From Chelativorans petroleitrophicus (GTDB lineage Bacteria; Pseudomonadota; Alphaproteobacteria; Rhizobiales; Rhizobiaceae), in contig NZ_JAODNV010000007.1 of assembly GCF_025398195.1 (NCBI RefSeq), positions 1-64,000 on the forward strand: a DNA stretch of 64,000 nucleotides, read 5' to 3'. The translations under genes were made by a program, and so were the position numbers. Under the pieces are notes generated by a model. It was not told the origin of the DNA. It saw nothing but the letters and a program-made list of their open reading frames with translations, and made no database searches. Of this stretch, positions 13,903-36,426 are shown piece after piece; the first letter of the stretch is position 1; the number at the start of each line of letters is the position of its first letter.

Positions 13903-13986
13903 GATGTGGCTCCAGTCGCGCGCGAAAAGGTTGCGTTCGCGCATTATGGAAGGCCGTACGGACCACCGCGCCCCGTTGTGAGGCTT

Positions 13987-14003
13987 GTTCCGGCTGGCGG
14001 AAC
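13987..14003. promoter_or_regulatory. Putative IclR-type operator 1
   Basis: The sequence TGTTCCGGCTGGCGGAACA (13986-14004) is a palindrome with 7-base arms and a 5-base spacer. It matches RTTCCRN5CGGAAY, found at four other intergenic places in this cluster. It sits between the divergent mandelate-racemase-group gene and tctB. Binding by the IclR protein at 24108-24890 is inferred. Confidence 0.7.
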
Positions 14004-14089
14004 AGTCTCCGTTATAGGTTTTGGAGCCCGCGCTGAAAGCTATGGTCTGCCCCCAGCGATGACCCTGAACCGAAGACGAGCTTCAAAGC

Positions 14090-14554
14090 ATGCGTTATCT
14101 GAAATTCAACGTCGACATCGCCTCCGGACTACTGTTCGCGATTTTCGGCGGCTGGTTCAGTGCGAGTTCATTCCTCAATCTCAACCTTGGCAATGCGTTC
14201 CGCATGGGACCGGGTTTCTTTCCCGCAATCGTCGGCGGGCTACTTTTCGCGCTCGGTCTTGCGATCGCGATAAAGGGCTGGCGTGAGGAATGCGAGACGG
14301 TCGAACCGGCCACCGTACCGTGGAGAGGCGTGGTGCTCCTGCCTGTCGGGCTCATCCTGTTCGGTGCCGCGATGCGACCATTGGGCCTTGGTATTGCCCT
14401 TCTCACGCTCTGCTTCTGCTCGGCCATGTCGGTCAAGGGCATGACCCTAGCAAGGGCCGCCGTTCTGTCGGCCGCCATCACCGCGCTCTCCATCGCGATC
14501 TTCCACATCGGGCTCGGCCTCAACCTGCCGCTCGTCGGCGACTGGCTGCGATAG
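14090..14554 (+). CDS. tctB: Tripartite tricarboxylate transporter small membrane subunit TctB (system 1)
   Basis: The 154-aa protein has four predicted membrane helices and the TctB signature near the N-terminus (NAFRMGPGFFPAIVGGLLFALG). TctB is the small membrane subunit of tripartite tricarboxylate transporters (TTT), which use a periplasmic binding protein and an ion gradient. Its stop lies 10 bases before the tctA start. It is the first gene of a seven-gene plus-strand operon. Confidence 0.88.
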   Translation: MRYLKFNVDIASGLLFAIFGGWFSASSFLNLNLGNAFRMGPGFFPAIVGGLLFALGLAIAIKGWREECETVEPATVPWRGVVLLPVGLILFGAAMRPLGLGIALLTLCFCSAMSVKGMTLARAAVLSAAITALSIAIFHIGLGLNLPLVGDWLR

Positions 14555-14564
14555 GGAGGCGGCG

Positions 14565-16067
14565 TTGGAGTTCATCTCGAATCTTTCGCTCGGCTTTTCC
14601 GTAGCGTTTGCCCTGCAAAACATCTTCTTCTGCTTCATCGGCGTCCTTGGAGGCACGTTGGTGGGTGTCCTGCCGGGTGTGGGACCGCTCGCCACCATCG
14701 CGATCCTTTTGCCCGTGACGTTCTCGATGGCGCCGGATTCGGCGCTGATCATGCTGGCAGGAATCTATTACGGGGCCCAATATGGCGGATCGACAACGGC
14801 AATCCTGCTCAACCTTCCGGGCGAGGCGTCGTCGGCGATCACCACGCTCGACGGCTATCAGATGGCCAGACGGGGACGCGCGGGGGCGGCGCTTGCCACC
14901 GCAGCACTTGCCTCGTTTTTGGCAGGCACGATTGCCACCGTGATTGTGGCGCTTTTCGCCACGCCTTTGACGAAGGTTGCGATGGCCTTCCGGCCTCCGT
15001 CCTACTTCTCGATGATGGTGCTGGGGCTTATTGCCTCTGTGGTTCTCGCCCATGGTTCTGTGCTCAAGGCGATCGCCATGGTCATGCTTGGCCTCTTGCT
15101 CGGGATCATCGGCACCGACATGTACACCGGCACCACCCGCCTCGACATGGGCATGCTCGAGCTTGCCGAAGGCGTGAACTTCGTCGCTCTTGCGATCGGC
15201 CTGTTCGGCATCGCCGAAATCCTGCGCAATCTCGAGAGCCCGGAAAACCGCGACGTTCTGACGGACAAGGTCAATGGATTATGGCTTTCCCTGAAGGATC
15301 TGAAGCGGATCGTCATGCCCTCGCTGCGCGGTACGGCCATCGGCTCCGCACTGGGCATTCTCCCGGGCGGCGGAGCGATGCTGTCCTCCTATGCGGCCTA
15401 TATCATCGAAAAGAAGGTCTCACGAAACCGCGGCGAAATGGGCAATGGCGCGATTGAAGGCGTCGCAGCGCCCGAAGCCGCCAACAACGCCGGCTCGCAG
15501 ACCGCCTTCATTCCCATGCTGACGCTAGGGCTGCCGTCCAATGCCGTGATGGCGCTGATGATCGGCGCCATGATCATCCAGGGCATCCAGCCGGGGCCGG
15601 ACATCATCATCAAGCAGCCCAACATGTTCTGGGGACTGATCGTGTCCATGTGGATCGGCAATCTGATGCTGATCGTGCTCAACCTGCCGCTGATCGGCCT
15701 GTGGGTCCGGTTCCTGACGGTGCCCTATCCGGTGCTCGTGGTCGCCGTGATGGCCTTCAGCGCCGTCGGCATCTATTCGGCCTCGGGCACCCTGTTTTCC
15801 ATGTACGAGCTCGGCTTCTTCTCGCTGCTCGGCTACGTCTTCATGCGCCTGGGCTGCGAACCGGCGCCGCTGGTCCTGGGCTTCATCCTCGGGCCGATGA
15901 TGGAGGAGCAGCTGCGCCGCAGCATGCTGATGTCGCGCGGCGATCCGACCGTGTTCCTGACGGAGCCGATCAGCCTCTGTTTCCTGATTGCCGCAGCGGC
16001 CGCATTGCTGCTCATCACCGCTCCGGCCATTGCCCGCCGGCGCGAAGAAGCCTTCAGCGAGGAATAA
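14565..16067 (+). CDS. tctA: Tripartite tricarboxylate transporter large membrane subunit TctA (system 1)
   Basis: The 500-aa polytopic protein (about 11-12 helices) is a clear TctA, with PGVGPLATIAILLP, ITTLDGYQMARRGRAG and PEAANNAGSQTAFIP as landmarks. Translation appears to start at a TTG (14565) behind a GGGAGG. It forms the translocation channel together with TctB. The second TctA in this window (20004-21503) is similar throughout but not identical. Confidence 0.93.
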   Translation: MEFISNLSLGFSVAFALQNIFFCFIGVLGGTLVGVLPGVGPLATIAILLPVTFSMAPDSALIMLAGIYYGAQYGGSTTAILLNLPGEASSAITTLDGYQMARRGRAGAALATAALASFLAGTIATVIVALFATPLTKVAMAFRPPSYFSMMVLGLIASVVLAHGSVLKAIAMVMLGLLLGIIGTDMYTGTTRLDMGMLELAEGVNFVALAIGLFGIAEILRNLESPENRDVLTDKVNGLWLSLKDLKRIVMPSLRGTAIGSALGILPGGGAMLSSYAAYIIEKKVSRNRGEMGNGAIEGVAAPEAANNAGSQTAFIPMLTLGLPSNAVMALMIGAMIIQGIQPGPDIIIKQPNMFWGLIVSMWIGNLMLIVLNLPLIGLWVRFLTVPYPVLVVAVMAFSAVGIYSASGTLFSMYELGFFSLLGYVFMRLGCEPAPLVLGFILGPMMEEQLRRSMLMSRGDPTVFLTEPISLCFLIAAAAALLLITAPAIARRREEAFSEE

Positions 16068-16070
16068 GCC

Positions 16071-17273
16071 ATGAAGGATGAGCAGACCATGCGTCCCTTC
16101 GAGGGTATAAGGGTTCTCGACATCACCCATGTGCTTGCCGCGCCCTTCGCCACCTATCAGCTTGCGGTGTTCGGCGCCGACGTCATCAGGATCGAAAATC
16201 CGCACGAGCCCGACCAGACACGGACCGACGGCAGCGACCCGGCGCTTTCGGCCGAGAAGATCGGCACGCACTTCATCATCCAGAACGGCGGCAAGCGCTC
16301 GCTGACACTCGATCTCAAAACGCCCGCTGGGCGGGAGGTCCTGCGCCGCCTCGTGCCGACGGCCGACGTGCTGGTGGAAAATTTCCGCCCCGGCGCGATG
16401 AAGGCGCTCGGGCTCGGCTACGAGGACCTGCGCGAGCTCAATCCGCGTCTGATCTACACTTCCATGTCGGCCTTCGGACAGGACGGCCCCAGGGGAGGGC
16501 AGACCGGCTACGACCAGGTGATCCAGGCCGTCTCTGGGCTGATGATGGTCAATGGAACCGCGGACATTGTGCCGATGAAGGTCGGAACGCCGGCCGTCGA
16601 TTATGCGACCGGCACGATGGGAGCCTTCGCCATCGCCTCCGCGCTGCTACAGCGCGAAAGAACCGGGCGCGGGCAGTACATCGATCTGTCCATGCTCGAC
16701 ACGGCCCTAATGCTGCTCGGCGCACATCTGACCAATTACAGCCGTTCGGGGCGGGCGCCCAAGGCGGGCGGCAACCGCCACGAGTTTGCAACGGTCGGCC
16801 TTTACGATACCGCCGACGGCCAGGTTCAGATCGCGGCGATCAACCTGCGGCAGCAACGACGGTTCTGGCGGCTGCTTGGGCACCCGGAACTGGTGAAGAA
16901 CAACAATGAAGAGCGCAGGGCCGACGCCGAGCGCGAACGGGAGATCCTGCGGCCCATCCTGATGACGAAGACCGCCCAGGAATGGGAAGACTGGTTCCAG
17001 GCCAACCATATCCCCGCCGCACGCATCTGGACCCTGCCGGAGACGCTTGCGCATCCGCAGCTCGAAAGCCGGGACGTGTTGCACCAGTTCATCGACGCGC
17101 CGGGCATTCCAGGCTCAATCACGGTGCCCAAGGCGGCCTTCAAGCTTGCCCATGGCGGCGCGCAGATGGACCGCCCGCCGCCCAGGATGGGAGAGCACAG
17201 CGAAAGTCTGCTTAAAGAACTCGGATACTCGGCGGAAGAAATCGCTGAACTCAAAAATTCGCGCATGATCTGA
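16071..17273 (+). CDS. Class III CoA-transferase (CaiB/BaiF family)
   Basis: The 400-aa protein is a family III CoA-transferase, which moves CoA between carboxylic acids through aspartyl-anhydride intermediates. N-terminal RVLDITHVLAAPFATYQLAVFGADVI and the central GYDQVIQAVSGLM are typical. The likely catalytic Asp is D178 in GTPAVDYATG. Lying between transporter genes, it probably activates the imported acid with CoA taken from another thioester. The start could be 16071 or 16089. Confidence 0.9.
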   Translation: MKDEQTMRPFEGIRVLDITHVLAAPFATYQLAVFGADVIRIENPHEPDQTRTDGSDPALSAEKIGTHFIIQNGGKRSLTLDLKTPAGREVLRRLVPTADVLVENFRPGAMKALGLGYEDLRELNPRLIYTSMSAFGQDGPRGGQTGYDQVIQAVSGLMMVNGTADIVPMKVGTPAVDYATGTMGAFAIASALLQRERTGRGQYIDLSMLDTALMLLGAHLTNYSRSGRAPKAGGNRHEFATVGLYDTADGQVQIAAINLRQQRRFWRLLGHPELVKNNNEERRADAEREREILRPILMTKTAQEWEDWFQANHIPAARIWTLPETLAHPQLESRDVLHQFIDAPGIPGSITVPKAAFKLAHGGAQMDRPPPRMGEHSESLLKELGYSAEEIAELKNSRMI

Positions 17274-17294
17274 CATCCCATGGGAGGACCCCCA

Positions 17295-18266
17295 ATGAAA
17301 CTCTTGTCTTTGCTTGCAGCGTTCACGCTGGCCCTTGCAGGGCTTGGCACCAGCGCAACCGCACAGGAAGCGGCCTATCCCAACGATCTCGTCCGCATTG
17401 TCGTCGGCTCCTCGCCCGGCGGCACGGCCGACACCGTTTCGCGGCTGATCGCAGAGGCCCTGACGGAAAAGTTCGGCCAGACATTCGTCGTCGAAAACCT
17501 GCCGGGTGCCGGCGGCGCGCTGGCGGCGAAGACCGTCAAGACGGCCGCGCCGGACGGGTATACGATTCAGTTCATCTTTTCCTCGTTCTCGATCCTGCCG
17601 TCCCTCAATCCCGCGGTCGGGTACGACCCGGTGAAGGATTTCGAGCCGATCGCCATGGTCTCGTCCGCACCCAATCTGCTGCTGGTGCATCCCTCCTTCG
17701 AGGTGTCCACGCTAGCCGAATGGATCGAGAAGGTGAAGGCGAACCCCGGTAAATTCGATTATGGCAGCGGCGGGATCGGCTACAGCCAGCATCTGTCGAT
17801 GGAGATGCTCCTGCAGTCCATCGACGGCGAGGCGGTTCACATTCCCTATTCCGGCAGTGGCGATCTCCTGGGTGCCCTGATTTCCGGCCAGGTGCCCTTC
17901 GCCTTCGATACGCTGACCACCGCCATACCTCATATCGAATCCGGAGCGCTCATTCCGCTTGCGACCACGAGCGCCGAACGGTCCGAAATCCTGCCTGACG
18001 TTCCTGCGGTAGGCGAGGAGGTGCCGGGTTACGAGTTGACTGCCTGGAACGGCTTCGTCGCACCGGCCGGCACGCCGAAGGAAATCATCACAGCGCTCAA
18101 CGATGCCATCACCGAATATCTCCAGAGCGATGAGGCCAAGGCCTTCTTCGAAAAGCTCGGAACGAAGATCGACGCCAGCACCCCGGAAGAATTCAAGGAG
18201 ACGATCTCCGGGGATTACGAGAAATTCGCCAAGGTCATCGAAAAAGCCGGTATCACCGCACAATAG
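17295..18266 (+). CDS. Periplasmic tricarboxylate-type binding protein TctC (Bug family), system 1
   Basis: A Bug-type solute receptor of 323 aa with a cleavable signal peptide (MKLLSLLAAFTLALAGLGTSATA). The ligand-loop landmarks are SSPGGTADTVSRL and NLPGAGGALAAKTV. The start at 17295 is behind GGGAGGA; a start at 17280 would break the signal peptide. It delivers substrate to a TctAB pair in the same operon. Confidence 0.9.
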   Translation: MKLLSLLAAFTLALAGLGTSATAQEAAYPNDLVRIVVGSSPGGTADTVSRLIAEALTEKFGQTFVVENLPGAGGALAAKTVKTAAPDGYTIQFIFSSFSILPSLNPAVGYDPVKDFEPIAMVSSAPNLLLVHPSFEVSTLAEWIEKVKANPGKFDYGSGGIGYSQHLSMEMLLQSIDGEAVHIPYSGSGDLLGALISGQVPFAFDTLTTAIPHIESGALIPLATTSAERSEILPDVPAVGEEVPGYELTAWNGFVAPAGTPKEIITALNDAITEYLQSDEAKAFFEKLGTKIDASTPEEFKETISGDYEKFAKVIEKAGITAQ

Positions 18267-18339
18267 ACGGGGGCAGGGCGCGAGGTCTGACGTGTCGCTC
18301 GCGCCCGGGCAACGGCTGACACCGTTTGGAGCTACATTC

Positions 18340-19422
18340 ATGACGATCCAGCACACCGTTCCTGCAGAGGTGCTCGGCCAGTTCGTGGCAGACCTTTTTG
18401 AAGCGGCGGGTCTTTCCGCCCAAGCGGCTAGGCGGGTCACCGACGCGTTGATCGAGGCCGACTTGTCCGGCAGGGGTTCCCACGGCGTCTTGCAGGCCGA
18501 CCGTTATCTCGCCCGTCTCATGTCCGGGGCGATGTCGACGGCCGAAAAGCCGCATATCGTCAGCGAATCCGGTGGAGCGGTGGTGCTCGATGCGGCGTAT
18601 ATGGAGGGCCATCTGGCCGCCGAGGAAGCCATCGCCATAGGCATAGCCAAGGCACGCGAGAATGGTGTCGCCGCCGTGGCCGTGCGCAACGCCCAGCACA
18701 TGGGGGTGGCGGGACGCTATGTGCGGATTGCGGCGGAAGCCAGTTGTGCCGCCATAGCGATGGGCAATGCCAAGCCGGTCATGCCTGCACCTGGCGGTGC
18801 CGAGCGCCTGGTCGGGACCAATCCCCTTGCCATTGGCATTCCGGCTAGCGGAAACCCGATCGTCATGGACATGGCCACGACGGCGGGCACCTTCGGGCGC
18901 GTTCGCGAGGCACACGCGGCCGGCCAACCCCTTCCGGAGGGCTGGGCAGTCGACGCCGAGGGAAAGCCGACGATCGACCCAGCGGCCGCCATGGCGGGCA
19001 TGCTCCTTCCCATGGGAGGAGCGAAAGGTTTCGCGCTTTCCTTCGCCATCGACCTCATGGCCGGGCTCCTGTCCAGCGGTGCATGGGGCGACAAGCTCGG
19101 CGAGGCCGGTGACGATACCACCAAGCCGCAGCTGTCATCCTACCTTTTCATCGTTCTGGACATCGCGCATTTCCGTGCGCTCCCAGGCTTTGTGGAGGAG
19201 GCTGACGCGGCGGTAAGGCGGGTGCGCCAATCGAAGCGAGCGTCCGGTGTCAAGCGCCTTTACACGCCGGGAGAGCGCAGCGCCGAAGCGCTCGCCAAGA
19301 GCAACGGAATGGTGAAACTTGCGCCGGCGGTCGCAAAGGCCCTGAGCGAGAAGGCGCGGGCTCTTGGCGTGGCCATTCCGCCCGCGCTTGAGGGTGAGGC
19401 AAGCACAGCCGCTATGGGATAG
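18340..19422 (+). CDS. Ldh2/malate dehydrogenase-like NAD(P)-dependent 2-hydroxyacid oxidoreductase
   Basis: The 360-aa protein belongs to the Ldh2 family (type 2 malate/L-lactate, ureidoglycolate and sulfolactate dehydrogenases). Landmarks are SGRGSHGVLQADRY, the catalytic-His region RNAQHMGVAGRY, VGTNPLAIGIP and MGGAKGFALSFAIDLMAGLLSS. It would oxidise a 2-hydroxy acid to a 2-oxo acid. A GGAG nine bases upstream supports the start at 18340; the longer frame from 18103 covers the preceding gene and is not used. Confidence 0.88.
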   Translation: MTIQHTVPAEVLGQFVADLFEAAGLSAQAARRVTDALIEADLSGRGSHGVLQADRYLARLMSGAMSTAEKPHIVSESGGAVVLDAAYMEGHLAAEEAIAIGIAKARENGVAAVAVRNAQHMGVAGRYVRIAAEASCAAIAMGNAKPVMPAPGGAERLVGTNPLAIGIPASGNPIVMDMATTAGTFGRVREAHAAGQPLPEGWAVDAEGKPTIDPAAAMAGMLLPMGGAKGFALSFAIDLMAGLLSSGAWGDKLGEAGDDTTKPQLSSYLFIVLDIAHFRALPGFVEEADAAVRRVRQSKRASGVKRLYTPGERSAEALAKSNGMVKLAPAVAKALSEKARALGVAIPPALEGEASTAAMG

Positions 19423-19510
19423 TGTTGGTGAGGCGGGCGCGATAAGTCGGTCCGCGCGCAGGGCACGGCAATATCTTTGGGCGACGCGTCGATCGCTGGG
19501 AGGAGAAATC

Positions 19511-19999
19511 ATGCACGAACGGGATTCAGCCCGACCGGGGGCAACCTTCAGTTCAAACATGCTCGCCGGAAGCATTTTTCTGTTTTTCGGCGCAGCCGCC
19601 ATGGTCCTCGGCTGGGGCTATGGTCTCGGTACGATGAGGCAGCCAGGAAGCGGTGCCCTCCCCGTCGTCATAGGCAGCGCGCTGGTTGCATTGGGCATCG
19701 TCCAACTCCTCGGAGCGGTGCGGGAAGCCGCAATGACGGCCGGTGCGCCAGCATTCCGCCGCTCTGAGCTGCGCCCGCTGGTGCTGATCCTCGGCGCCGT
19801 GTTCGCCTTCGCGGTGCTGATACTGCCTGCCGGCCTCATTCCCGCGCTGGTCGCACTCATCGTCATTTCGTGGTTTGCCCAGAAGGGCGGCCCGAAATGG
19901 GAAATCGCCGGCGCAATGGCGCTCGTCATCGCTGTCATCATCGCGATCTTCAAATACGGCCTGGGGCTGCCCCTACGGCTCTTCGTCTGGGGGTTCTAG
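19511..19999 (+). CDS. tctB: Tripartite tricarboxylate transporter small subunit TctB (system 2)
   Basis: A 162-aa TctB-like protein with four membrane helices and the family region MRQPGSGALPVVIGSALVALG. The ATG follows AGGAGA. It is five bases upstream of the second tctA, so the operon encodes two complete TTT membrane pairs. Confidence 0.85.
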   Translation: MHERDSARPGATFSSNMLAGSIFLFFGAAAMVLGWGYGLGTMRQPGSGALPVVIGSALVALGIVQLLGAVREAAMTAGAPAFRRSELRPLVLILGAVFAFAVLILPAGLIPALVALIVISWFAQKGGPKWEIAGAMALVIAVIIAIFKYGLGLPLRLFVWGF

Positions 20000-20003
20000 A
20001 AGC

Positions 20004-21503
20004 ATGGACGTCGTATCCCTCCTCGCCACGGGACTGCAGGTCGCCCTCAATCCAGTCAACCTGCTTTATTGCCTGATCGGCGTAAGCCTCGGTACGGCGA
20101 TCGGCGTGCTGCCGGGCGTGGGTCCCGTAATTACCATCGCACTCCTGCTGCCGCTCAGCTTCGGCCTGCCGGTGGAATCCTCCATCATTCTGCTGGCCGG
20201 CATCTATTACGGGGCCTCCTATGGCGGTTCGACCACGTCCATCCTGGTCAACCTTCCGGGCGAAGCCTCTTCCGCAGTAACCTGCATCGACGGCCACCAG
20301 ATGGCCAAGAAGGGCAGAGCGGGCGCTGCCTTGGCGGTGGCCGCGCTTGGGTCCTTCTTCGCCGGCACGGTGGGGACCCTGCTGATCGCGCTTGCCGGCC
20401 CGCCGCTTGCAGCCATTGCCATGCGCTTCGGCGCGGCCGAATATGCGGCGCTGGTGTTCGCCGCGCTGCTCATGGTCGCGACCATGACCCGAGGCGGAGC
20501 GGTCAAGGGAATTGGAGCCGCGTTGCTCGGCATCATATTCGGCCTCGCCGGTGCGGACGTCATGACCGGCGTCTTCCGCTTCACTTTTGGCGCGCCGGAG
20601 CTGCGCGACGGCATAGACTTTGCAGCGCTGGCGGTGGGTCTGTTCGCTATCGCCGAGATCATCGACAACATCTCCTCGCCGTCGCGCGACAACAGCTCGA
20701 CGAGCGCCATCGGCAGGCTGTGGCCAACGAAAGATGATTTCCGCAAGGCCTGGCCCGCCGTCCTGCGCGGCACCGGCATAGGTGCGCTGCTTGGCGTGCT
20801 GCCCGGGGCCGGCGTTGCCATGAGTTCTTTCTCGGCCTACATGGTTGAAAAGAACGTTGCGAAAGAGCCGGAACGGTTTGGCGAAGGCGCAATTGAGGGT
20901 GTGGCGGCGCCTGAATCTGCCAACAACGCGGCCGCGCAGACCGGCTTCATCCCCACATTGCTGCTCGGCATCCCCGGCAGCCCGGTGATGGCGCTGCTGC
21001 TCGGCGCGTTCATGATCCACGGCGTGGCGCCCGGGCCCCGGATGATGAGCGAGCATGCACCACTCTTCTGGGGGCTGATCGCCTCCATGTGGATCGGCAA
21101 CCTGTTCCTCGTCCTGCTGAACCTGCCACTGATCGGCCTCTGGGTTCGCCTCCTCAAGGTTCCCTACCACTGGCTCTACGTATTCGTGCTCGCCTTTGCC
21201 TGTGTCGGCGTCTTCACCATGGGATCGTCGGCGTTCCAGGTTTACGTGCTCATCTTCTTCGGCCTGCTCGGCTATCTGCTCAAGGCGGCGGGACTGAGCC
21301 CAGCCCTCTTCATCCTCGGCTTCATTCTCGGGCCGATGTTTGAGGAGAATTTCCGGCGCGCCATGGCCGTATCCCACGGCGATCCGCTGGTTTTCTTCCA
21401 GCGCCCGATTAGCCTGATATTCATCCTGCTGGGCCTGGCGATCCTCGCCCTCGCCACGACGTCCTTCGTGCGCCGCGGCCGCGAGGAGGCGGCCGAGGGT
21501 TAG
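20004..21503 (+). CDS. tctA: Tripartite tricarboxylate transporter large subunit TctA (system 2)
   Basis: This 499-aa TctA has the same landmarks as the first copy (PGVGPVITIALLLP, VTCIDGHQMAKKGRAG, PESANNAAAQTGFIP) and about 11-12 helices. The copies differ throughout, so this is an old duplication or separate acquisition rather than a recent one. It ends the operon and faces the minus-strand MmgE/PrpD gene; no strong terminator was seen between them. Confidence 0.92.
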   Translation: MDVVSLLATGLQVALNPVNLLYCLIGVSLGTAIGVLPGVGPVITIALLLPLSFGLPVESSIILLAGIYYGASYGGSTTSILVNLPGEASSAVTCIDGHQMAKKGRAGAALAVAALGSFFAGTVGTLLIALAGPPLAAIAMRFGAAEYAALVFAALLMVATMTRGGAVKGIGAALLGIIFGLAGADVMTGVFRFTFGAPELRDGIDFAALAVGLFAIAEIIDNISSPSRDNSSTSAIGRLWPTKDDFRKAWPAVLRGTGIGALLGVLPGAGVAMSSFSAYMVEKNVAKEPERFGEGAIEGVAAPESANNAAAQTGFIPTLLLGIPGSPVMALLLGAFMIHGVAPGPRMMSEHAPLFWGLIASMWIGNLFLVLLNLPLIGLWVRLLKVPYHWLYVFVLAFACVGVFTMGSSAFQVYVLIFFGLLGYLLKAAGLSPALFILGFILGPMFEENFRRAMAVSHGDPLVFFQRPISLIFILLGLAILALATTSFVRRGREEAAEG

Positions 21504-22940: not shown

Positions 22941-23021
22941 TGATGGAGTATCCCGAATGGCGGCAGACGAACAAAGGTCCGGCGGCATACCGATACCGCC
23001 GGACCGAAAGGATGCCGGACG

Positions 23022-23990: not shown

Positions 23991-24065
23991 GTTGTTTCCT
24001 CCCAAAGGTGCAGATTGCCGGGCATTATGCGCTGACGGCTAGTCTGTCGACAGCGAGTGCCAGCC

Positions 24066-25934: not shown

Positions 25935-25943
25935 GGGAATGAA

Positions 25944-27965: not shown

Positions 27966-27989
27966 GCCCTATATTTCAAGGAGACGCAC

Positions 27990-28976
27990 GTGAAATTTGG
28001 CACCATCAATCACGACGGCCGACAAGCCCTGGTCATACGCCGGGGCAGTGCGGCCGTACTCTTGTCCGAACTCTATGAGTCGGCCGGGCTGGGGCCGGCA
28101 CCCGCGACAATGAATGAGCTCATCGAAGGCGGAGAAGCGGAACTCGCCCGCGCCCGCCAAGCGCTGGAGACGGGCAAGGCAACCGAGTTGGACGAAGCTA
28201 CGCTCGACTGGCTGGCGCCGCAAACGCGACCCTCGAAGATCATCGGGGTGGCCTTCAACAATATGGGGATCCGCAAATCGGCTCACCGCGATCCAGGCGT
28301 GCCAAACTTCTTCCTGAAAGCGCCCTCCTGCCTGACGGGGCACAACAAGCCGATCATCATCGAAGAGCATTTCGGCGATACAATTCCCGAATTGGAGCTT
28401 GCCGCTGTGATCGGCAGGCGTTGCCGAAAGATTTCTGTGGAGGAGGCACGTGACGCCATCTTCGGTTACACGATCACCAACGACGTGACCTCGCACGGGC
28501 TGAAATTCGGGCTCGACTCGATCGCCACCACACGCGAACCCGATCTGATCCGCCCCCATCATCTTGCCTGGCGCAAGCGGCACGGGGATGACGACCGGGA
28601 CGTATATTTCGTCTATCATGCGCGCTCCAAGGCCACCGACACGTTCGGTCCGATGGGTCCGTGGCTGACCACGGCTGACGAAGTGGCGGACCCGAACAAT
28701 CTGGAAGTGAAGGGCTGGTTCGACGGTGAGCCCTTTGCGGTCGACTCCACATCGAGCTACCGGTTCAGGATCGAGGAAGTGGTTGCCGAGGCTAGCCGCT
28801 ATTTCACCCTGCAACCTGGCGACGTGATCTGCTTCGGCACCTCGGCCAAGGGCGTGGGCAAGTTCCCAAACGGCCACCGCTCTGTCAACATGCACAAGCT
28901 TGCAGGCGTCATCGACATCGAGATTGAAGGCCTCGGCCGTCTCTCAAACCCCGTGGTGCATGATTGGGAGCGCTAA
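27990..28976 (+). CDS. Fumarylacetoacetate hydrolase (FAH) family protein
   Basis: A 328-aa FAH-family protein. The likely metal ligands are the two Glu in IPELELAAVIG and a downstream Asp in the KATDTFGPMGPW region. The fold also carries GYTITNDVT. The family hydrolyses acylpyruvates or acts as decarboxylase/hydratase in ring-cleavage and sugar-acid pathways. The start is GTG at 27990 behind AAGGAGA. Its stop codon directly abuts the next start. Confidence 0.88.
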   Translation: MKFGTINHDGRQALVIRRGSAAVLLSELYESAGLGPAPATMNELIEGGEAELARARQALETGKATELDEATLDWLAPQTRPSKIIGVAFNNMGIRKSAHRDPGVPNFFLKAPSCLTGHNKPIIIEEHFGDTIPELELAAVIGRRCRKISVEEARDAIFGYTITNDVTSHGLKFGLDSIATTREPDLIRPHHLAWRKRHGDDDRDVYFVYHARSKATDTFGPMGPWLTTADEVADPNNLEVKGWFDGEPFAVDSTSSYRFRIEEVVAEASRYFTLQPGDVICFGTSAKGVGKFPNGHRSVNMHKLAGVIDIEIEGLGRLSNPVVHDWER

Positions 28977-30005
28977 ATGCGTGTGGTTGAAGTCGAGCGG
29001 CCCGGAGGCCCGGAGGTGCTACGCTTTGCCGAGCAGCCCCGCCCGGCCGCCGGACCCGGAGAGGTGGTCATCCGTGTCGTCGCCGCAGGCGTCAACCGCC
29101 CCGACATCCAGCAGCGGCGCGGTCTCTATCCGCCGCCGCCCGACGCTTCTTCGATCCTCGGCCTGGACGTTGCCGGGATCATTGAGGAGGTTGGCCCCGA
29201 GGTTAAGGGCATCTCCCAAGGTGACACGGTATGCGCCCTAGTCAATGGCGGGGGCTATGCGGAATATTGCCGGGTTCCGGCGGTGCAGTGCATGCCGATA
29301 CCACGCGGCCTCACCTTCGTTGAGGCTGCCTCCCTGCCGGAAGTGTTCTTCACCGCGTGGAACAACATCATCTGGCTCGGACGGCTCGGAGCTGGCGAGT
29401 CGCTCCTCATTCAGGGCGGAACCAGCGGCGTGGGAATGGCCGGCATCCAGATCGCCCGGCGGCTGCGGAACGCCACCGTCTATGCTACGGCGGGTACGGC
29501 CGAGAAACGGCAGGTCTGTCTCGATATCGGCGCGCATGCCGCGATCGACTACAAGGGCAAGTGGGAAGAAGAAGTTCGCGCGCTGACAGGCGGCGAAGGC
29601 GTCAACGTCATTCTCGACGCACAGGCCGGACCCTACACGCAAAAGCAGCTCGACCTGTTGAGGCCCGACGGCCGGCTTGTCTTCATCGCCAGCCATCTTG
29701 GCGAGACGGCCGAGGTCAACATCCGGTCGGTCGTCCGGCGCCGGCTCACGCTTTGCGGTTCCACCCTGCGTCCCCGCCCTCCCGAATACAAGGGCAGACT
29801 CGCCGCCGAACTGGTGGAGCACGTCTGGCCGCTCATCGAGGACGGAAGCATCGTGACCCGGATCCACGCCGTTTTCCCGTTCGATGAGGTGCGGGAGGCG
29901 CATGCGCTGCTCGACCGCAACGAGCAGATCGGCAAGGTCGTGCTGGCGGTCGACACGGCCCTTGCGGAATCCGTGCCGCGTGCCAACGCCCTGACGGGAG
30001 TGTGA
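28977..30005 (+). CDS. NAD(P)H-quinone oxidoreductase, zinc-free MDR family (PIG3-like)
   Basis: The 342-aa medium-chain dehydrogenase/reductase has an N-terminal GroES-like domain (AAGVNRPDIQQRRGLYPPPP) and a Rossmann domain with IQGGTSGVGMAGIQIARRL. The zinc ligands of alcohol dehydrogenases are absent. Homologues reduce quinones or enoyl compounds with NADPH. It starts directly after the FAH-family stop and overlaps the next possible start. Confidence 0.87.
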   Translation: MRVVEVERPGGPEVLRFAEQPRPAAGPGEVVIRVVAAGVNRPDIQQRRGLYPPPPDASSILGLDVAGIIEEVGPEVKGISQGDTVCALVNGGGYAEYCRVPAVQCMPIPRGLTFVEAASLPEVFFTAWNNIIWLGRLGAGESLLIQGGTSGVGMAGIQIARRLRNATVYATAGTAEKRQVCLDIGAHAAIDYKGKWEEEVRALTGGEGVNVILDAQAGPYTQKQLDLLRPDGRLVFIASHLGETAEVNIRSVVRRRLTLCGSTLRPRPPEYKGRLAAELVEHVWPLIEDGSIVTRIHAVFPFDEVREAHALLDRNEQIGKVVLAVDTALAESVPRANALTGV

Positions 30006-30007
30006 TC

Positions 30008-30466
30008 ATGTTGACGGTCGAGCGCGCCATCGATCTCAAGGCGCATGCGGGCAAGGTGCTGGGCTCTTCCGACTGGGTCACGGTGGAACAGGAGGCCATC
30101 GACACCTTTGCGCGCCTTACGGGAGACGATCACTGGATCCATGTGGACCGCGAGCGCGCCAGGCGGGAAATGCCAGGCGGCCGGACCATCGCCCACGGCC
30201 TTTACCTGCTTTCGCTCATCCCTTTTCTCCAACGCTCGATCTATGCGGTGCGCCGCCGCGGACGGGGCCTGAACTACGGCTATGACCGCGTACGCTTCGT
30301 GTCCCCCGTACAGGAAGGCAGCCGCGTCAGGCTGACCCTGAAACTGATCGATGCGGCACCGCACCCGCGCGGCACCCGCGTGGAGACGGAAACCACCATA
30401 GAGCTGGAGGGGTCCGACAGGCCGGCGCTTGTGGCATCGAACATCCTGCTGATCGAGGACGAATGA
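30008..30466 (+). CDS. MaoC-family hydratase (copy 1)
   Basis: A 152-aa hot-dog-fold protein with the hydratase motif region FARLTGDDHWIHVDRERARR followed by GGRTIAHGLYLLSL, typical of MaoC/R-specific enoyl-CoA hydratases. It would hydrate an enoyl-CoA. A GTG at 30002 is an alternative start, but GGGAG is better spaced for the ATG at 30008. Its stop overlaps the next start. Confidence 0.87.
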   Translation: MLTVERAIDLKAHAGKVLGSSDWVTVEQEAIDTFARLTGDDHWIHVDRERARREMPGGRTIAHGLYLLSLIPFLQRSIYAVRRRGRGLNYGYDRVRFVSPVQEGSRVRLTLKLIDAAPHPRGTRVETETTIELEGSDRPALVASNILLIEDE

Positions 30467-31992
30467 TGGAAATGGCATCTTCGGGGGCCGAGGAGGGTCG
30501 CCTCCTCGCCACGATCCTGGACCACGGGCTCGAGCGCCAGAGGGACGAGGCGCTGAGATGCGGCGAGACGAGCCTGAGCTGGGGCGAGCTGCGCCGGGCG
30601 GTGCTCGGTGCGGCGGGCGCAATCGCAGCGCGGACGGAAGGCGGCACGGGCCGCGTAGCACTCCTGGGTTCCGCCAGCGCCGAGTTGGTCGTCGCTTATC
30701 TTGCCACCATCGCCGCCGGCGCCTGTGCGGTGCCGCTGCCCGTTTCGGCGCATCCCGACGCGCTGGCCGGCATGTTCGCCGACTGCGAGCCTGACCTGCT
30801 CATTGCGCATGCAGGAGACCTCGACCGGATTGCGACGGCGCAATCCGTGCCCACCTTCGCCGTGGAACCCGGGCGCGGGCTGGCATTGGGTGATGTGGTC
30901 CGTCCCCTCGAGGCGGCGCGGGTCCCCTCGCCGGAAACGGACTTTAACATCATCTACAGCTCCGGCACGACCGGGCGGGCAAAGGGCATCGTCCATTCCC
31001 ATGCCATGCGCTACCGGCAGGCCGCGCGCAGCCTCTTCGACCTCGGGCCGGCAAGCACGATGCTGCTTGCAACCCCACTTTATTCGAACACGACGCTGAT
31101 GCCGCTTCTGGCCACGCTCTTCCATGGCGGCAGGGTGATCCTGATGCCGAAATTCGACGCGGAAGGCTATCTCGAACTGGCGGAGACGGAGCGGGCGACG
31201 CACACGATGCTCGTGCCGGTGCAGTACCAGCGCATCCTGGCAGCCGACCGCTTCAATTCCCATGACCTTTCCAGCTTTCAGGTGAAGCAGTGCACGGGCG
31301 CGCCACTGCCGGCAGCCACCAAGCGCGAAATCCTTAACCGCTGGCCCGGCCGCTTCCTGGAGGTCTATGGACTGACCGAAGGCGGCTGCACCTGCATTCT
31401 CGATCTGACGGCCCATCCCGACAAGGCGCATACGGTCGGTCGGCCGGCAACTGGCAATGAAATCCGGGTCATCGACGAGCAGGGCAGAACGCAGCCTCCG
31501 GGTGTGCGCGGCGAGATCGTCGGCCGTTCCGCCACGATGATGTCCGGCTATTTCCGGAACGAGGAGGCGAATGCCGCCTTCTACTGGCGCGATGCCGATG
31601 GTGTGCTCTTCCATCGCACGGGCGACATCGGCATGTTCGATGAGGACGGTTTCCTGGTTCTGCTCGATCGCAAGAAGGACCTGATCATTTCCGGTGGCTT
31701 CAACATCTACGCATCGGACCTCGAGGAGAAGCTTCTTGCGCATCCGGACGTGGCCGACGCCGCCGTGATCGCTATACCGAGCGAAAAATGGGGCGAGACG
31801 CCACTCGGCCTGGTGGTGCCCAAGCCCGGCAGGACAGTCGATACGGAAGAGCTGCTTTCCTGGGCGAATGCACAGCTTGGCAGAACGCAAAGACTCTCGG
31901 CCCTCGAATTGCGTGATGAACTGCCGCGCTCCAATGTCGGCAAGGTGCTGAAGCAGGAGCTTCGCAAACCCTATTGGGAGGGACACCGATGA
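30463..31992 (+). CDS. Acyl-CoA synthetase (AMP-forming)
   Basis: The 509-aa ANL-family enzyme has the P-loop SSGTTGRAKGIVHSH, the VYGLTEGG motif, and GDIGMFDEDGFLVLLDRKKDLIISGG with a C-terminal catalytic lysine region (PRSNVGKVLKQ). It activates a carboxylic acid with ATP to an acyl-CoA. The operon context (MaoC, SDR, FAH) suggests CoA-dependent breakdown of the imported acid. It overlaps both neighbours. Confidence 0.9.
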   Translation: MMEMASSGAEEGRLLATILDHGLERQRDEALRCGETSLSWGELRRAVLGAAGAIAARTEGGTGRVALLGSASAELVVAYLATIAAGACAVPLPVSAHPDALAGMFADCEPDLLIAHAGDLDRIATAQSVPTFAVEPGRGLALGDVVRPLEAARVPSPETDFNIIYSSGTTGRAKGIVHSHAMRYRQAARSLFDLGPASTMLLATPLYSNTTLMPLLATLFHGGRVILMPKFDAEGYLELAETERATHTMLVPVQYQRILAADRFNSHDLSSFQVKQCTGAPLPAATKREILNRWPGRFLEVYGLTEGGCTCILDLTAHPDKAHTVGRPATGNEIRVIDEQGRTQPPGVRGEIVGRSATMMSGYFRNEEANAAFYWRDADGVLFHRTGDIGMFDEDGFLVLLDRKKDLIISGGFNIYASDLEEKLLAHPDVADAAVIAIPSEKWGETPLGLVVPKPGRTVDTEELLSWANAQLGRTQRLSALELRDELPRSNVGKVLKQELRKPYWEGHR

Positions 31993-32750
31993 GCAGTGCG
32001 GAGATCCCGTCGCTTCCCACGCCCGAAGTGGCGCTGGTGACCGGCGCAAGTAGCGGCATCGGCAGGGCAGCCGCCTTGAGGCTGGCCGCGCTGGGCGCGA
32101 AGGTCATCGTCGGCTATCACAGCCGCGGGGATGCCGCCGAGGAGGTGGTGCGTTCGCTCAAGGGCGAAGGTCACACCGCCATGCGGATCGCCATCGACGA
32201 CACCGCTTCGGTGGAGGAAGCAGCCCACAGTGTCGAAGAGCGCTATGGAAAGCTCGACGTGCTGGTCAACTGCGGCGGAGCGACCACACCGGTTCCCGCT
32301 AACGACCTCGACGGGCTGACCGACGAGATCTTCGACCGCACGGTTACGGTCAATCTTCGCGGCCCCTTCGCCATGATCCGTGTCTTCCGGCCGCTGCTTG
32401 AGCGCGGAAGCAGCCCGGTAATCGTCAATATTTCCTCAATCGCCGCCCGCACCGGCGTCGGCAGCAGCCTCGCCTATTGCGCCGCCAAGAGCGGCCTGGA
32501 TGCGCTGACCATCGGCCTTGCCAAGGTTCTCGCGCCGAAAATCCGGGTCTTTTCCGTTTCGCCGGCCGGCGTCGATACGGATTTCGTGCCCGGCAGAACG
32601 CGCGAGCAGCTCGAAAAGACCGCCGAAAGATTGCCCTTACGCCGGATCACGACGCCGGATGACGTGGCGCGGGCCGTGATCGCCTGCGTGGTGCATCTGA
32701 CGAGTTCGACGGGCATCGTCGTGCCGGTAGACGAAGGCAGGCACCTATAG
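31989..32750 (+). CDS. Short-chain dehydrogenase/reductase (SDR)
   Basis: A 253-aa classical SDR: the cofactor motif TGASSGIG near residues 19-26, NCGG in place of the usual NNAG, a Ser in NISSIAA, and the catalytic YCAAK. It probably oxidises a hydroxyacyl-CoA or reduces a ketone. GGGAGG precedes the ATG at 31989, which overlaps the previous stop as ATGA. It ends this operon, three bases from the convergent MaoC gene. Confidence 0.88.
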   Translation: MSSAEIPSLPTPEVALVTGASSGIGRAAALRLAALGAKVIVGYHSRGDAAEEVVRSLKGEGHTAMRIAIDDTASVEEAAHSVEERYGKLDVLVNCGGATTPVPANDLDGLTDEIFDRTVTVNLRGPFAMIRVFRPLLERGSSPVIVNISSIAARTGVGSSLAYCAAKSGLDALTIGLAKVLAPKIRVFSVSPAGVDTDFVPGRTREQLEKTAERLPLRRITTPDDVARAVIACVVHLTSSTGIVVPVDEGRHL

Positions 32751-32753
32751 CTT

Positions 32754-33212
32754 CTACGAAGAGGACTGATGCTCGCGGGCAGGCACCTGCCCGATCGAGA
32801 TCATAGTCATGACCTCCTCGCCATGCTGGTTCCTGACCGCCACCTTTGTACGGATGATACCGTATTTCGGGTTGCTGCGGGAACGCTGGGTGTCGACAAT
32901 CTCCCGGATGACGTGCAGGCTGTCCCCCGGCCGCACCGGCTTGCGCCAGCGCAACTCGTCAATGCCCATGCCAACCACGGGCGTATCGCCGTATCCACCG
33001 CTCTGAATGAAAAGACGCATGGAGAGCGCGGCGATCTGCCAGCCGCTCGCAATGATCGAGCCGAAGCGGCTCTGAGCAGCTTTCTCCGGATCGGTATGGA
33101 TCGGCTGCGGATCATTCTCACGTGCATAGCGGATGATCTCTTCCTCCGAGAGCACGACAGGCTCGCTGATCCATGTTTCGCCGATCTCGATATCCTCAAA
33201 ATAGCGGGGCAT
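32754..33212 (-). CDS. MaoC-family dehydratase/hydratase (copy 2)
   Basis: A 152-aa hot-dog protein with RYARENDPQPIHTDPEKA and FGSIIASGWQIAALSMRL, the hydratase-2 signature. It is only loosely similar to copy 1 and resembles the mesaconyl/beta-methylmalyl-CoA type MaoC group in size. It lies downstream of the fumarase-like pair on the same strand, 40 bases after the beta subunit. Confidence 0.85.
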   Translation of the reverse strand: MPRYFEDIEIGETWISEPVVLSEEEIIRYARENDPQPIHTDPEKAAQSRFGSIIASGWQIAALSMRLFIQSGGYGDTPVVGMGIDELRWRKPVRPGDSLHVIREIVDTQRSRSNPKYGIIRTKVAVRNQHGEEVMTMISIGQVPAREHQSSS

Positions 33213-33252
33213 TCCAGTCTCTCCGTGAATGCGCGTTTGAAAGGCTAGAGCC

Positions 33253-33915
33253 TCAACCGGCAGCGGGGCCGGAGGCGTTCGACGCCTGCTGCCGTCGCTC
33301 GTCGAGTTCCTTCAATATGTCGGGCAGTCTCTCCCGTGCCCGCCGCTGCAGGTTCGCATACATGCTGTTGCCGTGGGCGTCGATGGCGACGGTTGCCGGG
33401 CCGAGGCCCGAGAGACGAAAACGCGAAAGGCGGAACTGCTCGATCAGATCGTCCCAGCCGGTTTCCAACCGTTCGGCAGCGCCCTCGCTTAACAGGGGCG
33501 AAGCGCCGCCCGGCAGGGAAAAGTAGACGCAGCCCACCTCCCGCATGGCCTCCACACAGGCCGCACCCATGCCGCCCTTGCCCCCGACCGATGTGAGCCT
33601 AAGGCCTCGGATCAGCGCAGGCATATAGGCATCAAAGCGCGAGGAGGTGGTGGGATTGACGTAGTTCGGAATCCATCTGCCACCGTCCTGCCGGCAGGAG
33701 CTGCCCATGTGGAAGAAGGCGCTTTCCTCCAACGGAAGGGGCAGCTCCCCGCCATGCGCCAGGGCTTCTGCGATGCGTTGATGCACGGGAAGACCGGCGG
33801 TCATGCTCACCACGCCGTCAAGCAGCACCGTGTCGCCGAGCTTGAGGCTGCGCGCCTGCTCGGGCGTCAACGGCAGGGTGAGGCGCGGAAGGTCCGGCAG
33901 ATGAGGCTCACTCAA
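33253..33915 (-). CDS. Class I fumarase/L-tartrate dehydratase-like, beta subunit
   Basis: The 220-aa protein matches the C-terminal domain of class I fumarases and the beta subunit of tartrate dehydratase (LGDTVLLDGVVSMTAGLPVHQRI, SVGGKGGMG, and FFHMGSSCRQDGG with GRWIPNYVNPTTSSR). With the alpha subunit it forms an iron-sulfur hydro-lyase acting on malate, tartrate, citramalate/mesaconate or similar. Its start overlaps the alpha-subunit stop by 8 bases. Confidence 0.88.
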   Translation of the reverse strand: MSEPHLPDLPRLTLPLTPEQARSLKLGDTVLLDGVVSMTAGLPVHQRIAEALAHGGELPLPLEESAFFHMGSSCRQDGGRWIPNYVNPTTSSRFDAYMPALIRGLRLTSVGGKGGMGAACVEAMREVGCVYFSLPGGASPLLSEGAAERLETGWDDLIEQFRLSRFRLSGLGPATVAIDAHGNSMYANLQRRARERLPDILKELDERRQQASNASGPAAG

Positions 33916-34777
33916 GGCGTTCGACCCTGTTGTCGTGATGGATGCGCGCCGCAGTGCGCCGATTAATCCAGCAGTTGAAGCATACGGCCACCGGCACGAA
34001 GCCGTGCCCGTGCGAATAGTCGATATGCACCGCCAGCGCGGTCGTGTCGCCGCCGGTGCCCATTGGGCCGAAGCCCGTCTTGTTCACGGCATCGAGCAGC
34101 CGCTTCTCCATGTCCGCCACCATCGGCTCCGGGTGATGCGTGCCGATCTTCCTCAGCGTTGACAGCTTGGCAAGCTTGGCAGCATTGTCGAAAGAGCCGC
34201 CGATGCCCACGCCGATCACCACCGGAGGGCAATGCTGCGAGCCTGCCTCCAGCACGCATTCCATGATGTAGGCTTCAATCTCGGCGATGGTCGGATAGCT
34301 GAACACCTTGAGATCGGCCCAGCGTCCCGATCCCAGCGCTTTGGGCGAGCAGACGATGTCCATGTAGTCGGCGCCGTCGGCCACATCGAAAGAGACGATG
34401 GGCATGTCCTTGCCCATATAGCTGCGCTCGAGAGTCAGCGGGTGGGTGATGAATTTCAAGATCGGCGGCTCGATGGTTTCGACCAGATCGGCAAAGCCGT
34501 CCACGAAGGCCCGGCGGATGTCGCCCTCGAGCGTAAGCCGCGTTCCGATCTTCACGAAATAGGTCGGGAATCCTGCATCCGAACAGGCATGGCGGCCCTC
34601 CTGCTCGGCCTTACGTGCCGCCGCCTGCATAAAGTCCAGCGTGCGCTGCGAAGCCGGATGAGTCTCCCGCCGCCGCGCCTCGGCCAGTGCGGCCAGCGTA
34701 TCGTCCGGCACCTTTTTCAGCGACCAGCCATAAAGGTCCCGCGCCACTTGCCTCACGATCTCATAGGAAATCGGCAC
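33908..34777 (-). CDS. Class I fumarase/L-tartrate dehydratase-like, alpha subunit (4Fe-4S)
   Basis: The 289-aa product from a GTG start at 34777 (GGGAGG nine bases upstream) is the iron-sulfur subunit. Candidate cluster cysteines are in GRHACSDAGF (about C65), SQHCPPVVIGVGIGGSFD (about C183) and VAVCFNCW (about C266/C269). An ATG at 34879 gives a longer but atypical N-terminus. Two IclR-like palindromes, one degenerate, lie upstream. Confidence 0.88.
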   Translation of the reverse strand: MPISYEIVRQVARDLYGWSLKKVPDDTLAALAEARRRETHPASQRTLDFMQAAARKAEQEGRHACSDAGFPTYFVKIGTRLTLEGDIRRAFVDGFADLVETIEPPILKFITHPLTLERSYMGKDMPIVSFDVADGADYMDIVCSPKALGSGRWADLKVFSYPTIAEIEAYIMECVLEAGSQHCPPVVIGVGIGGSFDNAAKLAKLSTLRKIGTHHPEPMVADMEKRLLDAVNKTGFGPMGTGGDTTALAVHIDYSHGHGFVPVAVCFNCWINRRTAARIHHDNRVERLE

Positions 34778-34858
34778 GTGCGAGCACCTCCCTTGCCGTC
34801 GCATGAGCACGGAGGTGATACGCGCCTTCACGCAGCGGGAAAACCGTTCGCTATGGGC

Positions 34859-34875
34859 GTTCCGCTTCGCGGAAT
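34859..34875. promoter_or_regulatory. Putative IclR-type operator 4
   Basis: GTTCCGCTTCGCGGAAT matches RTTCCRN5CGGAAY. It lies in the 199-base region between the fumarase-like alpha gene and the divergent aldehyde dehydrogenase. A degenerate copy with a spacer one base shorter follows at 34887-34902. Confidence 0.7.
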
Positions 34876-34976
34876 GCACCTACCTCGTTCATCTGGCGGA
34901 ACGCCGCGTCGGCGCATTTGCATTCGATGACGCTGTCCGTAACTGATCCGATGAAAGTCGGATTGGAGGAGGGAGC

Positions 34977-36404
34977 ATGCCGAACAATCTGAAATTCTAT
35001 ATAGACGGCGCCTGGGTCGAACCCGCCACGCCGAAAACGCTGGGCGTCATCAATCCTGCGACCGAGGAGGAATTTGCCACCATTAGCCTCGGCTCCGCTG
35101 CGGATGTGGATCGTGCGGTCACCGCCGCGCGCCGCGCCTTCGCCACCTATTCGGAAACGCCGGTTGCCGACCGCCTCGCGATCCTGGAGCGGATCATAAA
35201 GGGATTCCGCGCGCGCCTTCCAGAGCTTGCGCGTACGATGACGCTGGAGATGGGCGCGCCCATCACCTTCGCTACGGAGCGGCAGGCGACCGTCGCGCTC
35301 TTTCATTTCGAGGAGGCCGCGCGGGTTCTCGCAAACTACGCGTTCGAGCATCGGGATGGCGCCGGCATCATCCGCCACGAACCCATCGGCGTATGCGGTC
35401 TCATCACGCCCTGGAACTGGCCCTTGAACCAGGTCGCATCCAAGGTGGCGCCGGCGCTTGCGACCGGCTGTACCGTGGTGCTGAAGCCCAGCGAAATTGC
35501 ACCGCTGAGCTCCATGATCCTGGCCGAGATCATCCACGAAGCCGGCGTGCCGCGCGGGGTCTTCAACCTCGTGAATGGAGACGGGCCCACCGTCGGCGAG
35601 GCGATCGCGGCCCATCCGGACATCGACATGGTTTCCTTCACAGGCTCCACCGCCGCCGGCATCCGCGTGGCCAAGCTCGCCGCCGACACCGTGAAGCGGG
35701 TCGCTCAGGAGCTTGGCGGAAAGTCGGCCAACATCATCCTGCCGGATGCCGATCTTCAGCGCTCCGTCATAGCGGGCGTTCATGCCTGCTACACCAATGG
35801 CGGGCAAAACTGCCAGTCGCCGACGCGGATGCTCATCCATGTCTCCCAGCGGGATGCTGCGATCGAGGCCGCGCGAGCGGCTGTCGAGACGATCCGGCTC
35901 GGCGATCCTCTCGATCCTGCAACTACGATGGGACCGCTGGTCAGCAAGGCGCAGTTCGACAAGGTGCAGGACCTGATCCAGTCCGGCATCGACGAAGGCG
36001 CAATGCTGGTCACGGGCGGCACGGGCCGCCCCGCCGAGGTGAACCGGGGGTATTACGTGCGGCCGACCGTCTTCGCCGACGTCAAGCCGGAGATGCGAAT
36101 CGCACGCGAGGAGATCTTCGGGCCGGTCCTGTCGATCATGAACTACGAGACGGAGGAGGAAGCGATCGAGATCGCAAACGACACGCCCTTCGGTCTCGCC
36201 GGCTTCGTTCAGTCGAAAGACGCCGAACGCGCCCGCCGCGTGGCCAACCGGATCCGCGCCGGGCGCGTCTATCTCAACGGCGCGCCCTTCGACCGCAGGC
36301 TGCCCTTCGGCGGCTACAAGCAGTCTGGCAACGGGCGTGAGTTCGGTGTCTTCGGGTTCGAGGAGTATCTCGAGGTCAAGGCGATCCTCGGCTACCCCGC
36401 CTAA
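34977..36404 (+). CDS. NAD(P)-dependent aldehyde dehydrogenase (cluster copy)
   Basis: A 475-aa ALDH with the catalytic Cys at C279 (NGGQNCQSP), the general-base Glu at E245 (QELGGK), and the oxyanion Asn N147 (PWNWPL). It would oxidise an aldehyde intermediate to the acid. GGAGG precedes the ATG. It lies between two IclR-type palindromes and upstream of the TAXI receptor gene. Confidence 0.9.
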   Translation: MPNNLKFYIDGAWVEPATPKTLGVINPATEEEFATISLGSAADVDRAVTAARRAFATYSETPVADRLAILERIIKGFRARLPELARTMTLEMGAPITFATERQATVALFHFEEAARVLANYAFEHRDGAGIIRHEPIGVCGLITPWNWPLNQVASKVAPALATGCTVVLKPSEIAPLSSMILAEIIHEAGVPRGVFNLVNGDGPTVGEAIAAHPDIDMVSFTGSTAAGIRVAKLAADTVKRVAQELGGKSANIILPDADLQRSVIAGVHACYTNGGQNCQSPTRMLIHVSQRDAAIEAARAAVETIRLGDPLDPATTMGPLVSKAQFDKVQDLIQSGIDEGAMLVTGGTGRPAEVNRGYYVRPTVFADVKPEMRIAREEIFGPVLSIMNYETEEEAIEIANDTPFGLAGFVQSKDAERARRVANRIRAGRVYLNGAPFDRRLPFGGYKQSGNGREFGVFGFEEYLEVKAILGYPA

Positions 36405-36409
36405 TGAAT

Positions 36410-36426
36410 ATTCCGCGCAGCGGAAC
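36410..36426. promoter_or_regulatory. Putative IclR-type operator 5
   Basis: ATTCCGCGCAGCGGAAC matches RTTCCRN5CGGAAY. It begins six bases after the aldehyde dehydrogenase stop and lies about 83 bases upstream of the TAXI receptor start, so that gene probably has its own promoter. Confidence 0.7.

Follow-up and report, generated by a model that had tools for sequence, protein, structure and literature searches.

We analysed a 64,000-nucleotide (nt) window of the genome of Chelativorans petroleitrophicus (3,959,353 bases in 69 contigs), in which a catabolic island carries five copies of a palindrome that are likely operators of the island's own IclR-family regulator. An enolase-superfamily gene (12766) forms one end of the island, and a TAXI solute-binding gene (ending at 37657) forms the other. 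The other transport genes are two tripartite tricarboxylate transporter (TTT) tctBA pairs, two tctC and a TRAP permease. Its enzymes are a CaiB-type coenzyme A (CoA) transferase, an Ldh2 dehydrogenase, an MmgE/PrpD protein, a FAH hydrolase, a quinone oxidoreductase, two MaoC proteins, a CoA ligase, an SDR, a two-subunit fumarase-type hydro-lyase and an aldehyde dehydrogenase (aldh); further genes are iclR and one for a DUF6282 protein. Gene starts were picked by hand from in-frame starts and Shine-Dalgarno-like sequence, with ATG 23990 chosen for tctC2, ATG 24996 for DUF6282 and GTG 34777 for fumA.

An earlier, sequence-only reading of this DNA had reported five 17-mers of the form RTTCCRN5CGGAAY, and all five are present where it placed them (Table 1). 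Given the chosen gene starts they are all intergenic, as it had claimed, and they stand on both sides of iclR: the site at 24905 upstream (also of DUF6282) and that at 24066 downstream (upstream of tctC2). In the window, this motif matched at five places, or eight times with each strand counted; dinucleotide shuffles (n = 100) gave 0.09 on average. Genome-wide, RTTCCRN5YGGAAY occurs at seven places, namely the five of the island and two within long open reading frames (ORFs), whose translations suggest DNA polymerase I (L007) and a response regulator (L001); a reversed control pattern occurs at three places. No strict-motif match beyond the five thus lies outside long ORFs, and the probability that at least five of the seven places fall within 22.4 kb by chance is 1.2e-10. 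The five sites are alike in their half-sites only, and their flanking sequence differs. Furthermore, a matrix built without window sequence, from the sites upstream of iclR in 19 non-duplicate rows of relatives with at least 64% identity, ranked these five as the top five in the window. The sixth-ranked match (14.4) lies within ldh2, and 60 Markov shuffles gave on average 0.15 matches (maximum 2) scoring at least 16.9.

A weaker copy with a 4-base spacer had also been described near 34887-34902. The copy exists, but its spacer was misjudged: the ordinary 5-base register matches 10 of 12 positions at 34886-34902, so that a 4-base spacer is unnecessary and was rejected. The palindromes had further been said to set the borders of the island, and the outermost sites do fit the ends of the catabolic genes, because YscJ and YscD-like genes lie to the left and a sensor kinase gene to the right. 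The left-hand stretch (7317-12710) carries these two genes, which are of the type III secretion kind, the YscD-like one scoring under the Pfam cut-off. After them, a 676-amino acid (aa) protein at 10680-12710 has no Pfam match.

Table 1. Genes, candidate operators and predicted promoters of the island (window positions).
Feature	Position	Strand	Basis or remark
Enolase-superfamily (mandelate racemase/muconate lactonizing) enzyme	12766..13902	-	domain search
Unit tctB1-tctA1-caiB-tctC1-ldh2-tctB2-tctA2	14090..21503	+	unit inferred from layout
Unit tctC2-mmgE/prpD	21549..23990	-	unit inferred from layout
IclR-family regulator, 260 aa	24108..24890	-	HTH_IclR and IclR_C over Pfam cut-offs
Unit DUF6282-TRAP permease-FAH hydrolase-quinone oxidoreductase-MaoC-CoA ligase-SDR	24996..32750	+	unit inferred from layout
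Unit fumA-fumB-maoC2 (fumarase-type hydro-lyase)	32754..34777	-	unit inferred from layout
Aldehyde dehydrogenase (aldh)	34977..36404	+	
TAXI-family TRAP solute-binding protein	36509..37657	+	
Operator 1	13987..14003	.	between enolase-superfamily gene (-) and tctB1 (+); matrix score 20.8
Operator 2	24066..24082	.	upstream of tctC2 (-), downstream of iclR; matrix score 18.8
Operator 3	24905..24921	.	between iclR (-) and DUF6282 (+); matrix score 20.7
Operator 4	34859..34875	.	between fumA (-) and aldh (+); matrix score 18.9
Operator 5	36410..36426	.	upstream of TAXI solute-binding gene (+); matrix score 16.9
Weak operator	34886..34902	+	matrix score 9.6, tenth in window; centre 83 nt ahead of aldh start
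Predicted enolase promoter GCGCGG-17-CATAAT	13943..13971	-	poor -35
Predicted tctB1 promoter TTTTGG-16-TATGGT	14019..14046	+	
Predicted tctC2 promoter CTGTCG-18-CATAAT	24024..24053	-	
Predicted iclR promoter TTGACT-16-TATGCC	24930..24957	-	ends 8 nt before operator 3; coordinates derived from gap
Predicted DUF6282 promoter TTGTGA-16-TCTAAG	24938..24965	+	
Predicted fumA promoter TTTTCC-17-TATCAC	34815..34843	-	
Predicted TAXI promoter TTGTCG-17-TCCAAT	36443..36471	+	

Conservation of the operator in relatives

The search covered 151 genomes, that of C. petroleitrophicus among them, and 13 gave a match at E ≤ 1e-40. A scan of species genomes yielded 13 loci. Three of them are in uncultured lineages, three in Martelella and one each in Chelatococcus, Nitratireductor, Neorhizobium, Pelagibacterium, Stappia, Rhizobium terrae and Salipiger. 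Identity reached 60% or more in eight plasmid records, of which three entered the comparison. In Mameliella alba (L055), the cluster and the site ahead of iclR are on plasmid pKUB257, typed as conjugative.

The 120 nt upstream of iclR were compared in 26 rows of relatives, or 21 without those flagged as duplicates. A full match (12 of 12) to RTTYCRN5YGRAAY was found in 20 of the 21 non-duplicate rows (25/26 with duplicates), against 28 of 3008 other 120-nt pieces of the same loci, true sites included. One site lies at -100 from iclR (G081, 47% identity), and in the remaining relatives the site centre is 19-40 nt ahead of the iclR start. The motif recurs in relatives ahead of tctC, tctA/B, taxi, fumA, aldh, ldh2, maoC2, sdr and DUF6282, and operator 1 (the tctB1/enolase site) has a counterpart at the equivalent place in G012 (L046:4823). 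Conservation in orthologous promoters therefore extends to iclR and to the cluster genes, in relatives of several families. Spacing is constrained too: over 23 loci of relatives (485,041 bases), 67 matches had a spacer of 5, and each other spacer from 0 to 12 gave only 0-8. Permuted half-sites (179 of them) averaged 1.7 matches in relatives, with a maximum of 20 for the near neighbour RTTCYR. One further match, GTTCCAGGCGGTGAAAT, recurs within the quinone oxidoreductase gene of four relatives (L031:7411, L032:7442, L039:6870, L055:14533), probably as conserved coding sequence.

The core of the consensus first proposed was right, but it was somewhat too narrow, as position 4 is C or T in relatives and the code becomes RTTYCRN5YGRAAY. 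The bases flanking the 17-mer are also conserved, being C/T in 63 and G/A in 62 of 64 oriented flanks with the promoter geometry described below (window included), and the operator is therefore 19 bp, YRTTYCRN5YGRAAYR. By reading, the window site at 24066 has one of the two expected outer bases, and the other four have both. Within the spacer only the central base leans to A/T (44/64), its neighbours carrying less than 0.25 bit, and no conserved block that could be a third half-site was seen in the operator flanks.

Operator-promoter geometry

We scored promoters, with consensus values as weights, on both sides of 66 intergenic sites (window included), which gave 132 flanks, 122 of them from relatives. 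Measured from the site edge, the mean -35 score was highest at offset 15 and the mean -10 score at offset 38, both over the maximum of 200 shuffles. In relatives, the best promoter fell at offsets 13-17 in 48 of 61 flanks that face a structural gene start, in 10 of 30 unassigned flanks, and in none that face an iclR start (0/21) or a gene 3' end (0/10). Counting relatives and window together, 64 of the 132 flanks fell in this band (shuffle mean 16.5, maximum 29, 200 shuffles). Within the window, the best promoter lay at offset 12-17 in all seven structural flanks (six at 13-17) and in none of three other flanks, compared with 15.7% of random window 75-mers; the aldh flank joins the seven only with a score of -0.6.

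If the first base of the -10 box is taken as -12, the operator centre at structural units would lie at about -57 to -60 (about -59) from the start point. Operator centres are 83-95 nt ahead of structural gene starts, except for aldh, whose start is 110 nt from the centre of operator 4. Measured from the weak copy, the best aldh promoter (offsets 14/37) scores 3.8, versus -0.6 from operator 4, and the weak operator probably serves aldh. Of what is expected of an activator that binds upstream, the fixed operator distance ahead of the -35 box was thus found, with start points that are themselves predicted from sequence. Tandem operators, with centres 18-22 nt apart, were considered and rejected: the closest pair in the window (34867/34894) is separated by 27 nt and a pair in L037 by 39 nt.

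On the iclR side the arrangement is reversed. Here TTGACN, 16-18 bases, a -10-like hexamer and 6-8 bases precede the operator in 16 of 21 sequences, a count that has no shuffle control.

The regulator and rival explanations of the sites

The 24108-24890 protein exceeds the Pfam cut-offs for HTH_IclR (39.2 versus 22 bits) and IclR_C (47.7 versus 24 bits). Its nearest NCBIfam model, NF007342, scores 241.1 bits, under the cut-off of 251 for an MhpR equivalog; this model belongs to the PRK09834 group, which we take to be MhpR. Escherichia coli genes annotated mhpR match the protein at about 35%. E. coli MhpR activates from about -58. Its operator, GGTGCACCTGGTGCACA (PMC8222616), is unlike that of the island.

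The closest likeness is to IclR group 1, whose operator is GKTYCRYW3-4RYGRAMC with subgroups GTT-11-AAC and WTT-11-AAW (Suvorova and Gelfand 2021, PMC8222616). The island operators share its RTTYC...GRAAY half-sites, its odd spacing and the 11 bases between outer triplets. The general form of the group has KTYCR...YGRAM half-sites and 11-12 bases between these triplets, with which RTTYCRN5YGRAAY in window and relatives agrees; about a third to half of the outer bases are A/T, as in WTT-11-AAW. In the window, the centre of the iclR operator lies at -23, close to the published peak of -22 nt (PMC8222616). However, the W3 middle of group 1 is not kept, as only the central position leans to A/T, and the operator is therefore close to group 1 rather than a strict member. 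GenR of Corynebacterium glutamicum, with ATTCC-N7(5)-GGAAT, has the same half-site and spacing, but it belongs to an actinobacterium and to gentisate/3-hydroxybenzoate genes (PMC8222616); the likeness given here concerns the operators. IclR proteins generally control their own gene and one or two adjacent operons (PMC8222616); the regulon here would be larger than this usual scope. The operator-to-promoter distance is our own measurement and does not come from that article.

We consider it likely that the five palindromes and the weak sixth are operators of the 24108-24890 protein, which would exert dual control over about eight units. This assignment rests on neighbourhood and co-conservation, and the probable IclR regulon of the sequence-only reading gains support from the genome scan, conservation and the window-free matrix. 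The promoter geometry, which suggests activation plus self-repression, had escaped that reading. At structural units, a dimer bound about 57-60 bp ahead of the start would sit next to the -35 box on its upstream side, within reach of RNA polymerase, and could thus activate. The operator of iclR comes after the -10 box and would cover the start region; we therefore propose that the same protein represses its own gene. A regulator bound at 24905 would then activate the DUF6282 unit and repress iclR, in opposite directions. It presumably answers to a compound of the pathway.

Several observations weigh against this reading or parts of it. One relative (G034, 49% identity) has no site upstream of iclR. 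Site 34859 would be covered if the longest fumA ORF were taken. Chance can score high: the best single Markov-shuffle score is 19.6, and 21.0 is reached by a match that lies in a 658-aa ORF (L065). Some chance coding matches thus score as high as real sites, and score alone cannot define the regulon. The geometry is not followed by 13 of 61 structural flanks, the promoter described above is absent from 5 of 21 iclR-side sequences, and the predicted enolase promoter has a poor -35 box. The 13-17 band was set after the profiles had been seen on largely the same sequences, and the rows come from related species and are not independent. Note also that a promoter has little space in iclR flanks, where the start codon is 11-32 nt away; better controls are the gene-end flanks and the spread of the pattern over transporter, fumarase, dehydrogenase and DUF6282 genes.

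The paralogues are a further point against it. The genome has 12 IclR-family places, 11 of them over the Pfam cut-off, and paralogues on C34, C68 and C1 lie near broad-motif matches, so another IclR could share sites (cross-talk). The broad consensus RTTYCRN5YGRAAY occurs at 28 places, 22 of them outside the window, and alone is therefore not island-specific. Of these 22, 19 coincide at least partly with an ORF of 100 aa or more, although such ORFs say little where DNA is GC-rich; the three that do not are two on C34 and C3:21942 (L061:1501, ATTTCAACCCTTGGAAT), the latter distant from the island. The C34 island (L084, C34:1-20000) combines an IclR paralogue (39%) with tct genes and a DUF6282 gene of its own; its palindromes are of the TTTCA type, and the same promoter spacing is seen at three of the four. 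The C68 island (L085, C68:125000-144999) has an IclR paralogue (34%), three ATTTCA-type palindromes and, by reading, two enolase-superfamily genes. At C1:15329 (L086:7330), the site GTTCCGCTGCGCGAAAT lies about 190 nt ahead of the longest ORF of another iclR and fits the promoter spacing; it also lies within a 169-aa ORF of the other strand, and cross-control is possible. Broad-motif counts in congeners (28, 28, 39 and 28 with iclR; 9-24 without, n = 12) were set aside as evidence, since each of the four carriers has a second paralogue and the per-Mb counts overlap.

These paralogues make another regulator, for example one of them, conceivable as the user of the palindromes, all the more as the C34 and C68 islands and one C1 iclR have a related motif nearby. 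Yet the site and this iclR occur together in 20 of the 21 non-duplicate rows, other families and plasmids included, and all seven C34/C68 sites have at least one TTTCA half, which none of the five here has; we regard this explanation as very unlikely. That the same IclR uses the same sites as a pure repressor of all units, released by an inducer, is unlikely: many IclR proteins are repressors (PMC8222616, PMC13273656), and activation cannot be proved by geometry. Against it, the operator stands ahead of the -35 box and clear of the predicted core promoter in 48 of 61 structural flanks, and the -35 boxes are poor at enolase (GCGCGG), fumA (TTTTCC) and tctB1 (TTTTGG), as expected of activated promoters. 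We give next to no credence to five chance matches or a dispersed repeat. The broad motif does turn up singly in coding DNA, but the similarity confined to half-sites, the clustering, the spacer and permutation controls and the conservation all speak against such an origin.

DUF6282 and a candidate mobile module

Control of this kind is already known, with half-sites and spacing those of IclR group 1. What is new here, as judged from predicted promoters, is the fixed and unusually regular operator-promoter geometry. We found no study of the circuit or pathway in the literature searched; RegPrecise and the supplements of PMC8222616 may list the regulator. Literature searches by cluster content returned no description of the pathway, and the name DUF6282 was not found in the literature searched.

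The DUF6282 protein has no PDB sequence match at E ≤ 1. Its predicted model (mean pLDDT 82.7) loosely resembles amidohydrolase-superfamily barrels (best 2i5g, E 3e-8, TM 0.58, root mean square deviation 6.8), so the protein may, loosely, be an amidohydrolase-like barrel; the model points to no substrate. Across 13 sequences, four histidines (33, 35, 181 and 206) and one aspartate (265) never vary. In Neorhizobium galegae VafX2 (L056:16944-17857) the DUF6282 gene is annotated as two pieces.

It seems to us evenly balanced whether the whole amounts to a mobile module, in which IclR-type dual regulators form a new orthologous group and one operator-promoter cassette wires captured operons into an undescribed DUF6282-centred pathway. 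If true, the 19-bp operator would be placed about 59 bp ahead of catabolic promoters and also over the start region of the regulator gene, and TTT, TRAP, fumarase and enolase units, which differ between species, would be wired in alike. The analysis itself makes the 25-kb island a testable circuit, with exact operators, predicted promoters and a predicted direction of control for each unit. This circuit delimits a gene set that probably belongs to one pathway. It also offers a handle on DUF6282, and a single operator-promoter spacing that can be traced over many acquired operons.

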